Origin: a bacterium
Lineage (GTDB): Bacteria; Bacteroidota; Rhodothermia; Balneolales; M1805
NCBI GenBank assembly: GCA_006226965.1
Contig: SBGQ01000182.1
Span: forward strand, 1 to 44,985
Direction: 5' to 3'
DNA: 44,985 nucleotides
Made by a program: the position numbers and the translations under genes. Positions 30,809 through 35,267 of this stretch are shown here, piece after piece; positions within the stretch are counted from its first letter, which is position 1, and each line of letters begins with the position of its first letter. The notes under the pieces were generated by a model, which was not told the origin of the DNA, did no database searches, and saw only the letters and a list, made by a program, of their open reading frames with translations.

Positions 30809-31227
30809 TTTGCCTATTGATACCCAAAATAAATTTGAAAAGCAAGTGCTTGATTATTGAAAATGCGTATAATTTATTAGAAAAGGGCTTTCAGATGATT
30901 GGAGAATGTTGAAAATGCAAACAGTATTTTGGTCAGATCAGATATAAGAATGCTGAAATCTGTACTCTATTGAGGATTTGAGATTCTTGGTTTTATCAAG
31001 TAAAAAAGATTTAGAATAAACGAATTAACAATGATAAAAGTGCTAATTGATTGATATTCAGTAGTTTACAAGAATAGATGTATTCAAAATCAAAAAAAAC
31101 AAAAAAAAAATTAGATAGTGTGTAGCGAATACTGAATTTGTTGCATCTAAAGAATTGAAAGCGATTGAATCTGTGGCCACATTTCATCGTAGGCGGAAGC
31201 CGAAAAAATTAACGGAAGATCATCACT
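30809..31227. other. AT-rich spacer between divergent operons
   Basis: These 419 bases separate the regulator gene from the repeat-protein operon. I see no ORF, RNA gene or strong hairpin. Apart from homopolymeric A-rich tracts near 31090-31112 and a small GGC-GGAA-GCC stem at about 31193, nothing stands out. The promoter of the repeat-protein operon must lie here but does not show a clean TAnnTTTG, as would be expected for an ECF-sigma-dependent promoter. Confidence 0.5.
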
Positions 31228-32763
31228 ATGAAAAAAATCAGCAAATATATACTACTGAGCCTTTTCGCAGCTTTGAGCACACATTATGTGAATGCACAAG
31301 ATACTTTGGAATATTATGTACCTAAGAAAAAGTCAGTTTCGCACTCAGCGCTACATTTGGCTTATAATGATATGGGAATCAGTTTTGGGAATTCAAAACG
31401 ATTGACAGGACTTCGTTTCAACTTTTCCGATAATTATATGGAAAAGGTTAACGGGTTGAACTTTACAATTTGGTTACCGGAAAAAAATCCAAATTCTGAA
31501 ATTAACGGATTGGCTTTGAGTTTAACTCTCGCCGAAGCTACCTATGTAAGAGGATTTTCATTTGGTCTAGGCGGTGTAACCGGAGATCATATTAGCGGGA
31601 TATCGTCAGGTTTGGTTGGGGTAGGCTCAATAAAATCGATAAGCGGTGCTTCGATTGGAGGTCTAGGAGTTGGGACTCATGGAAATTTGGCAGGTTTAGC
31701 TATTGCCGGTTTAGGAATTGGAGCCGGTGATAATTTTACAGGAATTGGACTTTCCGGTGCCGGAATAGGTGTCGGTAAAAGATTAAAAGGATTTACATTT
31801 TCTTTAATCGGAACAGGAATTGGCGAGAGTTCAGTTGGTATTCATTTATCAGGTGTTGGAATGGGTTCGGGCGGTTCTATGAAAGGTATTCATATCGCAG
31901 GTGCCGGAATCGGAGCATCAAATGACTTGTTGGGAATACAAGGCGCATTTTTCGGAATGGGTTCAGGCGGAAATATGAAAGGGCTAAATGTTGCCGGAAT
32001 TGGAATTGGAGCCGGTGAGGATTTATCAGGTATCAGTTTTGCAGGTATCGGATATGGTGTCGGCGGAAATATGACGGGACTAGCATTCAGTTTTGTTGGC
32101 GGCGGCGTTGGCGGAAATGCTAAATATGTTACCGCAGCGGGAATTGGATTAGGAATTTCTGAACACAACACAGGTTTCGCCGGAGCCGGAGTTGGCGTTG
32201 GCGTCGGTTCTTCAACCGGATTATTACTATCCGGTATTGGAATCGGTATTGGTGGTTCAGCTAAGGGTATACACTTAGCCGGAATTGGTATCGGTGCCGG
32301 AGATAATTTGACAGGCTTTAACTTTGCGGGCGTTGGAATAGGTGCAGGCGGAACGATTTCCGGTGTAAACTTGACATTGGGCGGTATCGGAGCTGAAGAA
32401 ATTCGAATCTTTTCAATTGCAGGTTTAGGAATTGGTGCCAAAAAAATAACAGGTATTCATTTAGCGGGTGCCGGAATCGGAGCTAAATCAATAAAAGGTT
32501 TTGTATTTACCGGAGGCTTGAACTTTACGGAAGAATTCGAAGGCGTGAACATTTCTTTAATCAGAATGCGAACAGATGCTTTTAAAGGTGGTTCTTTCGC
32601 TTTCTATAATCAGGTTCAAGGTCATCAAAGCGGTGTAACCATTGGCGTGTATAATTACACCAGAACGATTAAAGGTTTTCAGTTAGGTTTACTGAACTAT
32701 GTTCGTTCTAACCCAAAATGGGCACGCTTATTACCATTGTTTAATACCAATTTTGGCGATTAA
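31228..32763 (+). CDS. Exported repeat protein, LA_2272-type surface repeat family
   Basis: This 511-aa protein has a signal peptide (1-24, ending VNAQ). After about 85 non-repetitive residues it is built of about 25 consecutive units of 15-16 residues (residues 109-497). The consensus is G-[ILF]-x-[LFI]-[AS]-G-[ILV]-G-[IM]-G-[AVS]-G-x-[ND]-[LMI]-[KTS]. The tail GFQLGLLNY and PLFNTNFGD resembles the end of LA_2272-type surface repeat proteins. Such strict glycine/aliphatic periodicity suggests a beta-solenoid on the cell surface or in the periplasm. It starts a four-gene operon; the ECF sigma factor follows 2 nt after its stop. Function is unknown; adhesion or envelope protection is a guess. 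Confidence 0.85.
   Translation: MKKISKYILLSLFAALSTHYVNAQDTLEYYVPKKKSVSHSALHLAYNDMGISFGNSKRLTGLRFNFSDNYMEKVNGLNFTIWLPEKNPNSEINGLALSLTLAEATYVRGFSFGLGGVTGDHISGISSGLVGVGSIKSISGASIGGLGVGTHGNLAGLAIAGLGIGAGDNFTGIGLSGAGIGVGKRLKGFTFSLIGTGIGESSVGIHLSGVGMGSGGSMKGIHIAGAGIGASNDLLGIQGAFFGMGSGGNMKGLNVAGIGIGAGEDLSGISFAGIGYGVGGNMTGLAFSFVGGGVGGNAKYVTAAGIGLGISEHNTGFAGAGVGVGVGSSTGLLLSGIGIGIGGSAKGIHLAGIGIGAGDNLTGFNFAGVGIGAGGTISGVNLTLGGIGAEEIRIFSIAGLGIGAKKITGIHLAGAGIGAKSIKGFVFTGGLNFTEEFEGVNISLIRMRTDAFKGGSFAFYNQVQGHQSGVTIGVYNYTRTIKGFQLGLLNYVRSNPKWARLLPLFNTNFGD
31552..32718 (+). repeat. Tandem 45-48-bp coding repeats (about 25 units)
   Basis: Each unit encodes one 15-16-residue rung of the surface protein. The units are diverged at the DNA level, so they are old rather than recently amplified. 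GGxATxGG-type words recur about every 48 bases. Confidence 0.8.
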
Positions 32764-32765
32764 CC

Positions 32766-33287
32766 ATGGTTGACTTGGACGACAATCGGCTTATTGAACT
32801 GGCAAAAGAAGGGAGTCAGTCGGCATATCGGATGCTGTACGACCGCTACGTGGATGACCTCTTTCGATTTGTAGCACAGTTTAGACCGGAACGCACGGAA
32901 GTGGCCGATATCGTTCAGCAAGCTTTCATCAACTGCTTTACCAAGTTAGAGCTATTTCAAGGTAAATCGAGTTTTAAAACCTGGTTATTCAGCATTGCAA
33001 TCAGGGAATTTCAGATGGACTTGCGAAAGTGGAAAGGCAAAGAAACGGAATCAATTGATGATCATGAAATTCCAAGTCTTCCCGGCGATATCGACCTCAT
33101 GAGTATTAAAGTGTATGTGAGCAAACTGGACGAAAGAAAACGAATGGTTTTTCTCTTGTTTGAAGTGGAAGGGTACTCACACAAAGAAATTTCGGAGCTC
33201 CTGGAAATTCAGGAAAGTCACTCCAGAACGCTGCTCACACGAGCAAAAATGGAATTAAAAACGCATTTAACGGAAAAACGATTATGA
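32766..33287 (+). CDS. ECF-type RNA polymerase sigma factor
   Basis: This 173-aa sigma70-family protein contains only regions 2 and 4. Region 2 (about 18-90) has VADIVQQAFINCF and FKTWLFSIAIREFQMDLRKWKG; region 4 (118-168) has MVFLLFEVEGYSHKEISELL and the recognition helix IQESHSRTLLTRAKMEL. ECF factors direct transcription of a small regulon, often in response to envelope signals. It begins 2 nt after the repeat-protein gene and overlaps the following membrane protein by four bases (ATGA), the usual coupling of an ECF factor with its anti-sigma factor. It probably controls its own operon. Confidence 0.93.
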   Translation: MVDLDDNRLIELAKEGSQSAYRMLYDRYVDDLFRFVAQFRPERTEVADIVQQAFINCFTKLELFQGKSSFKTWLFSIAIREFQMDLRKWKGKETESIDDHEIPSLPGDIDLMSIKVYVSKLDERKRMVFLLFEVEGYSHKEISELLEIQESHSRTLLTRAKMELKTHLTEKRL

Positions 33288-33781
33288 AATCCGATTTTTA
33301 TTCTCCAAGTGATACACCCGGACGCCACGAAAAAGAAATGATGTGGAACCGCATTGAATTAGCTGTTGCAGAACAACGGATTCGCTCCATTAAATCCATC
33401 CATTGGAAAAGCTTTTGGTTTGGCTGTGCTGCATCTGTACTCATCGTGTTTTCTGTAATCGGTTTATTTACTGTTTTCAGAAGTGTTACAGCTCCTAATC
33501 CGAATAGTGGTTACGCACTCGATATGACTTACGAAAGAGCTATGAACCAATTGGTTTCGATGACTCCAAACTTGGTAAAACAAGCAGATGAAGTTGAACG
33601 CCCTGTGTTAGAATCCAAAATCAAGAACATCGAAGACATCGATTCGATGATTGAAGAAATTCGTAATGATATGCTGCTCAACGGTGTATCAGACATCAAA
33701 CGCAGACAATTAAAACGTCTGTACGCATTAAAAATGGATCATGTGAAAGATTTGCTTCTCAGTGATGAAGTATCCATGTAA
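33284..33781 (+). CDS. Putative anti-sigma factor, single-span membrane protein
   Basis: This 165-aa protein has a short cytoplasmic N-terminus (1-42), one membrane helix (about 43-66, FWFGCAASVLIVFSVIGLFT) and a charged helical periplasmic C-terminal domain (67-165). No zinc-binding anti-sigma motif (HxxxCxxC) is present. Placement, overlap (ATGA) with the sigma gene, and topology make it the likely anti-sigma factor, holding the sigma factor at the membrane. The C-terminal KRRQLKRLYALKMDHVKDLL helix resembles that of other Bacteroidota proteins in this position. The identification rests on context rather than on a domain. Confidence 0.72.
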   Translation: MKSDFYSPSDTPGRHEKEMMWNRIELAVAEQRIRSIKSIHWKSFWFGCAASVLIVFSVIGLFTVFRSVTAPNPNSGYALDMTYERAMNQLVSMTPNLVKQADEVERPVLESKIKNIEDIDSMIEEIRNDMLLNGVSDIKRRQLKRLYALKMDHVKDLLLSDEVSM

Positions 33782-33815
33782 TTGCACAACCCAAACGATT
33801 TTTGACAGAATTATT

Positions 33816-35267
33816 ATGAAAACATTTTTTAACCAACCGCCATACAGAAAGATATTTTCTGCCTTTTCTCTGATGATGGTTTTGATTGCTTTGCAATTAA
33901 CGCCGACAAAGGCTCAGGAAATCATCACCGTACAAAATGGAAATACAATTGATGCCAAAAATGCCACACAAGTTTTTGTGTATAATATTAAAGGCATGAA
34001 TATTAACGTAAAAGGTGTTGAAGGCCATGAACTTACCTATAAAGTATTCATTAAAGCCAACGAAAATGCCATGCTAAAAAACTTTGGCGGCGGACGTCTA
34101 TATAACAAAATGAATGATGGCGTGTTGGAGTTATATTTCGAAACCTCAGAAGAGTCAAACTCTAATAATCAACAAAACCAATCTTGGATTAAATCCTTTT
34201 TATCCTCAGGTGTTACTTATGAAAGCGTTATTAAAGAAGCCGTTTTAACACTTGAAGTTCCAAAGGAATTATTCTTTAAGGTAAATGCACGATACAGTAA
34301 TGTGAATGCGTCAGATTTCGATAAAAACGTTGAGTTAAAAACGCGAAGCGGTAATATCGAGTTAAATCGAGTTAATGGAGAAGTGCTCATTTTTAATGAT
34401 TACGGAAATACAAAAGGCTCTGATTTAAAGAGCCACGTTACAATAAACTCACGTTCCAGTGAAACCGAGTTAACTAATGTTGGCGGAATGGTGAAAATAG
34501 AATCAGACTACTCTGATGTGCGCCTCGAAAAAGTTGCAGGTTCTGTTTCCGTAGAAAATAAATCAGGAAAAGTTGTTGCAAGCGATTTAGAACGCGATTT
34601 TGACCACAGAGGGAATTATTCAAGCATCAAGCTGAAAAATGTTAAAGGTGTAGCAACTATAGATAATACAAACGGCTCGCTAGATGCAGAAAACATTGGT
34701 TCATTGAGTTTTAAAGGCAATTATTCTGATGCTTCTGTAGAAAATATTACCATGAGTCGCTTAGTTACAATCGAATCGAAATCATCGAGTTTGAAGCTAA
34801 AAAACGTTGTTGCTCCTGTTTCAATTGATGGTTCATATATGAAAATCAAGGTTCAAAAGGTAACGGGCGATGTGAAAGTGTATAACAAAAACGGTTCCGT
34901 TGATTTGGATGAAATTAAAGGAAATGTGCGCATTGACGGCGATTACAATGATGTAGAACTCAAAAATATTGATGCGAAATTGGTAGAAGCATTCAACAGA
35001 AACGGGTCTATTCGTGCAGAGTTACTCGGAAATCCTGAATCAGTTTCATTTCGAAACAGATATGGAAGCGTAAATCTAAAAATGAAAAATGAGTATATCG
35101 GAAAAACATCACTTGAAGTGAGCTACGGCTCAATAAAACATCCTTTTGATGCAGCTTCGGTAACGAGAGAAATTAAAAATACAAACGACCATATGATTGA
35201 ATTAAACGGAAAAGGCAAAACCGAAATTCAAATCAGAGTAGAAAACGGTTCGATTACAATCGAATAA
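33816..35267 (+). CDS. DUF4097-like exported adhesin-type beta-helix protein
   Basis: This 483-aa exported protein (signal peptide about 1-34, ending TPTKAQ) opens with a domain of the type VFVYNIKGMNINVKGVEG. It then carries repeated short beta units such as RSGNIELNRVNGEV, GNYSSIKLKNVKG, NGSVDLDEIKGN and DYNDVELKNID, alternating NG/DY turns with x-V-x-L strands. This pattern is characteristic of DUF4097/DUF2807 putative adhesins, predicted right-handed beta-helices. I take the ATG at 33816 because the longer frame from 33762 only adds an unlikely stretch in front of the signal peptide and overlaps the previous gene. It is the last gene of the sigma-factor operon and a likely target or output of that system; the function is not known. 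Confidence 0.82.
   Translation: MKTFFNQPPYRKIFSAFSLMMVLIALQLTPTKAQEIITVQNGNTIDAKNATQVFVYNIKGMNINVKGVEGHELTYKVFIKANENAMLKNFGGGRLYNKMNDGVLELYFETSEESNSNNQQNQSWIKSFLSSGVTYESVIKEAVLTLEVPKELFFKVNARYSNVNASDFDKNVELKTRSGNIELNRVNGEVLIFNDYGNTKGSDLKSHVTINSRSSETELTNVGGMVKIESDYSDVRLEKVAGSVSVENKSGKVVASDLERDFDHRGNYSSIKLKNVKGVATIDNTNGSLDAENIGSLSFKGNYSDASVENITMSRLVTIESKSSSLKLKNVVAPVSIDGSYMKIKVQKVTGDVKVYNKNGSVDLDEIKGNVRIDGDYNDVELKNIDAKLVEAFNRNGSIRAELLGNPESVSFRNRYGSVNLKMKNEYIGKTSLEVSYGSIKHPFDAASVTREIKNTNDHMIELNGKGKTEIQIRVENGSITIE

Follow-up and report, generated by a model that had tools for sequence, protein, structure and literature searches.

A conserved ECF sigma, anti-sigma and Toastrack operon of Bacteroidota with a predicted autoregulatory promoter and, in one lineage, a repeat protein gene at its head

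Proteins of the DUF4097 family carried the old label 'adhesin' and are now called 'Toastrack' in Pfam. Operons that encode them have been tied to envelope stress, and some of them are described as having 'an operonically linked sigma factor' (PMC11237479). Among the regulators of ECF sigma factors, class I anti-sigma partners are rare in Bacteroidetes, where they were assigned to 6% of ECFs; approximately 44% of class I anti-sigma domains have no zinc motif, and proteins with a cytoplasmic part below 50 aa were set aside as possible class II (PMC7406223). A cytoplasmic part of this length points to the CnrY class (PMC7406223, PMC4598750). Our literature search found no account of a trio of ECF sigma, anti-sigma and Toastrack genes or of its promoter, and a search on ECF together with DUF4097 or Toastrack found no paper naming both; the large ECF reclassification, which lay outside the search, may give a group number.

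The analyzed window of 44,985 nucleotides is one complete contig of a 3.78-Mb, 184-contig genome from the order Balneolales. Its operon at positions 31228-35267 consists of four genes alone (Table 1), and their order, strand and spacings match an earlier sequence-only reading exactly: the repeat protein gene comes first and is separated by 2 nt from the sigma gene, which overlaps the anti-sigma gene by 4 nt, and a gap of 34 nt precedes the Toastrack gene. We consider it likely that this locus represents an autoregulated envelope-response trio (sigma, anti-sigma and Toastrack) placed under sigma's own predicted promoter, with the repeat gene inserted in this genome between that promoter and sigma.

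Table 1. Features of the four-gene locus and its upstream region, in window coordinates.
Feature	Position	Strand	Description
Predicted promoter for the ECF sigma encoded in this operon	31121..31150	+	TGTAGC-N16-GCATCTAA; exact match to the motif of the orthologues
Repeat protein gene	31228..32763	+	511 aa, exported, LA_2272/VC2662-like, Gly-rich, predicted all-beta
ECF sigma factor gene	32766..33287	+	173 aa; Pfam Sigma70_r2, Sigma70_r4_2, TIGR02937
Predicted anti-sigma gene	33284..33781	+	165 aa, single-pass membrane protein; from position, hydropathy, alignments and AF2 model
Toastrack (DUF4097) gene	33816..35267	+	483 aa, exported beta-helix protein; Pfam PF13349

The sigma factor showed clear Pfam matches to regions 2 and 4 (3.8e-12 and 5.1e-12, respectively) and scored above the TIGR02937 cut-off. 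Regions 1 and 3 are absent, as in other ECF factors, and comparative genomics points to a further ECF trait, an autoregulated promoter upstream of the operon. The protein encoded next is a predicted anti-sigma factor on the grounds of its position and topology; it matched no Pfam or NCBIfam family and no Pfam anti-sigma domain. According to hydropathy, alignments (A1 and A4) and AF2 modeling, it has a cytoplasmic part of approximately 43 aa, a transmembrane helix at residues ~46-65 and a helical periplasmic part of approximately 100 aa, in which AF2 placed helices at 75-100, 106-133 and 137-164. The single-chain AF2 model shows one long helix from residue 14, and a fold search with the model gave generic helix-bundle matches only, none at E <= 0.001. 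As had been noted from the sequence alone, the protein has no zinc motif: the cytoplasmic HxxxCxxC of class I zinc anti-sigma domains (ZASD) was not found, and the sole Cys (48) falls within the transmembrane helix. This absence is unremarkable, since about 44% of class I domains also have no zinc ligands (PMC7406223). The start of a single transmembrane helix near residue 46 leaves a cytoplasmic part under the 50-aa length criterion of class II, which suggests a factor of the CnrY class, in which two helices embrace sigma2 and sigma4. The Toastrack protein belongs to PF13349 (2e-14; 54 bits vs a gathering cut-off of 22.9); its initial designation as an adhesin reflects an outdated family label and is unsupported. 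Signal-peptide-like N-termini occur across the full-length Toastrack family alignment (A3), for which no convincing solved relative was found.

Fourteen further genomes of the order, from Balneola and other Balneolaceae, carry orthologues of the anti-sigma factor. In all 14 the gene lies between an ECF sigma gene and a DUF4097 gene, in most cases with 4-nt overlaps, and the sigma factors share 37-49% identity with that of the window. Approximately 15 Bacteroidota genomes besides these Balneolaceae also carry the trio. A search of 296 Bacteroidota genomes with the DUF4097 alignment, combined with HMM annotation of neighboring genes, found 12 genomes beyond the order with the same gene arrangement. 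A broader anti-sigma alignment run against 394 genomes gave 22 strong matches and at least three further trios; in two of these the DUF4097 protein is shorter. When 26 loci were compared all against all, sigma and DUF4097 were recovered in 26/26 cases each and the anti-sigma factor in 21/26 by BLAST, the others being divergent. The families common to near and far loci are those of the trio only, plus one flanking family in 5/26. Judging from these comparisons, the trio is a conserved, ancient operon of Bacteroidota. Three loci (L225, L228 and L231) form a sub-branch of the trio with divergent anti-sigma proteins of 232-242 aa. At one distant locus (L220:4144-4443), the sigma ORF measures just 99 aa next to intact anti-sigma and DUF4097 genes, and reflects either a broken gene or a sequence error.

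Upstream of sigma, the Balneolaceae share the motif TGTAAC-N16-GCATCTAA, which precedes the gene in 14 of 14 orthologues with 0-2 mismatches; the overall consensus is TGTARC-N16-GCATCTAA. Nine of the 11 distant trios also carry it, with 0-3 mismatches and a spacing that is always 16. When all 26 upstream regions were scanned at this spacing, matches with at most one and at most two mismatches were found in 18 and 21 regions, respectively, compared to none at spacings of 10-15 and 17-22 and an average of 0.14 in shuffled sequences with at most two mismatches. As the motif was derived from the 14 Balneolaceae and the window, the independent test is confined to the 11 distant loci, of which six deviate at two positions or fewer, three have the variant TGCAACC...GGGTCTAA and two have no match. 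The variant, at the same spacing as the main motif, belongs to the L225, L228 and L231 sub-branch.

The window copy is exact at all 14 specified positions and lies upstream of the repeat gene, in an intergenic region of 437 nt where 4e-6 exact occurrences are expected by chance. No copy was found within 400 nt upstream of sigma, a stretch that falls inside the repeat gene. Given an exact promoter before the repeat gene and none before sigma, the sigma factor most probably drives all four genes of the window operon. The adjacency of the four genes is not attributable to chance either, because the predicted promoter of the trio itself sits upstream of the repeat gene; for the same reason, an assembly misjoin between the repeat gene and sigma was considered unlikely. 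A by-eye promoter guess, TGAATC-N16-CGTA (~31180-31200), was dropped after the relatives had revealed the conserved motif.

Two exact motif copies are present in the 3.78-Mb window genome against 0.07 expected. The second (G000:C142:16433-16462, equal to L085:1501-1530) is identical to the operon copy at 26/30 positions and is followed after 33 nt by a gene for a 134-aa lipoprotein with a weak YdgH/BhsA-like match, which we predict to be a second target of the sigma factor. This target is not conserved in the order, as its relatives amount to one weak match among 126 genomes. The motif was absent upstream of every other ECF locus examined in the window genome. In the 14 Balneolaceae genomes, a search in which one position could be C, T or A returned 17 copies. 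The sigma operon accounts for 12; the remaining five equal the number obtained with a reversed-pattern control. One Balneolaceae locus (L129 ~1501-1530; G038:C11:96066) has a perfect motif upstream of two genes, one for a membrane protein of 122 aa and one for a second ECF factor, and the promoter specificities of ECF factors may thus overlap.

The repeat protein matched no Pfam family. Against NCBIfam VC2662 it gave a weak match (4.2e-7, 29.6 bits) below the cut-off of 140, which places it outside the LA_2272/VC2662 family as delimited by NCBIfam; LA_2272_repeat was found above its cut-off in a more distant relative (L079). The AF2 model is all beta and weak (pLDDT 68, pTM 0.47), and a PDB fold search with this model gave no match. 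Its profile retrieved no convincing solved relative, and a contig search with the single protein as query found no relatives. The protein is probably located at the surface. In Balneolaceae, an LA_2272-like repeat gene belongs to a conserved cluster (L078, L079, L080 and L082), and in L079 the flanking genes code for a cyclophilin, MsrB and a PagL-like lipid A deacylase, a hint of a role at the outer membrane. In another family, the repeat gene occurs beside crtI and RlpA.

The place of the repeat gene in the operon can be read in different ways. The sequence-only reading had suggested that the four genes may be a self-contained system that senses the envelope and builds a surface structure. 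A true four-gene module, in which the repeat and Toastrack proteins jointly build or monitor such a structure, would agree with the close spacing, the one common promoter and the export of both proteins. However, 74 of 129 genomes from the order and 91 of 296 genomes sampled across the phylum (about a third) contain relatives of the repeat protein, and among approximately 50 inspected loci the gene adjoins sigma in the window only, a comparison that rests on less close relatives, as the collection contains no other genome from the family of the window genome. Where one genome has both (e.g. G036, G003, G092, G283 and G425), the repeat gene and the trio lie apart. Near the repeat gene of the relatives, no promoter match was found at up to two mismatches. 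A standing module of four genes is therefore unlikely, and the missing linkage in relatives refutes a conserved four-gene unit by the sequence-only reading's own standard; the survey retains only sigma, anti-sigma and DUF4097 as a unit, and nothing shows the building of a surface structure. What holds of the earlier proposal is a sigma-controlled operon that would sense the envelope and has a conserved ECF promoter at its head.

At the opposite extreme, the repeat gene would be a mere upstream neighbor under its own regulation, with the autoregulation of sigma lost or its promoter unseen and the motif at 31121 coincidental. The distance of 77 nt from the promoter to the repeat ATG is compatible with this, as it exceeds the spacing of 16-52 nt in the orthologues from the promoter to the first conserved residue of sigma, but the exactness of the match, the narrow gap between the repeat gene and sigma and the lack of a motif immediately before sigma make this reading very improbable. 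The promoter might also be read by another ECF factor, making the operon a target in a wider network and not self-contained. Promoter classes of ECF factors can overlap, and the L129 copy before a different ECF gene fits with this; we nevertheless give this reading only a very small chance, given that the motif follows the trio across Bacteroidota and was seen at no other examined ECF locus of the window genome. A sensory role for the Toastrack protein, and here for the repeat protein too, whereby the anti-sigma factor would stay closed through the folding of these proteins or their arrival in the envelope, appears quite unlikely; if true, the circuit would measure the state of its own protein products. 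Most probably, the repeat gene is a lineage-specific addition, captured in first position by an envelope-response operon under autoregulation.

Under the preferred reading of an autoregulated trio, the anti-sigma factor would hold sigma at the inner membrane at rest by its short cytoplasmic N-terminus, which is CnrY-like in length, and an envelope signal would lead to the release of sigma. Sensing probably falls to the periplasmic half of the anti-sigma factor, which is helical and conserved, and the adjacent Toastrack protein perhaps also reads the signal. The released sigma would initiate at TGTARC-N16-GCATCTAA, a step well supported by comparative genomics, yielding more sigma (feed-forward), more anti-sigma (shut-off) and exported Toastrack protein, the last of these an output or a scaffold. 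In the window genome, the first protein made in this response would be the repeat protein, as the position of its gene behind the predicted promoter suggests.

The trio and its promoter are a solid finding of a mostly known kind, with the repeat gene as a lineage-specific capture. The precise promoter predicted for a phylum-wide trio makes its regulon readable from sequence, and the trio is of interest given that few Bacteroidota ECF factors (6%) have a recognized class I partner (PMC7406223). DUF4097 proteins gain a specific regulatory home, and the window shows how a new gene can join a regulon by its position between promoter and sigma.

Compared to known systems, the trio resembles the CnrH/CnrY type in having an ECF sigma gene followed by that of a one-pass anti-sigma factor with no zinc motif and fewer than 50 cytoplasmic residues. 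In contrast to this type, the anti-sigma factor itself, and not a separate CnrX protein, carries the helical periplasmic part, the next gene encodes an exported Toastrack protein, and no sequence link to CnrY emerged. With the PSP/Lia Toastrack operons it shares a Toastrack protein encoded together with a membrane signaling gene and a sigma factor (PMC11237479). However, the window Toastrack has a signal peptide, whereas an intracellular location is argued for in that work (PMC11237479), and control would be exerted by an ECF/anti-sigma pair; no PspA-, PspC- or LiaF-type partner is present in the window operon or conserved beside the Toastrack gene. The repeat protein shares with the LA_2272/VC2662 proteins (NF047436, NF047437) both the C-terminal region and the pattern of Gly-rich repeats, but it scores below their cut-off and is the sole one found under predicted ECF control.
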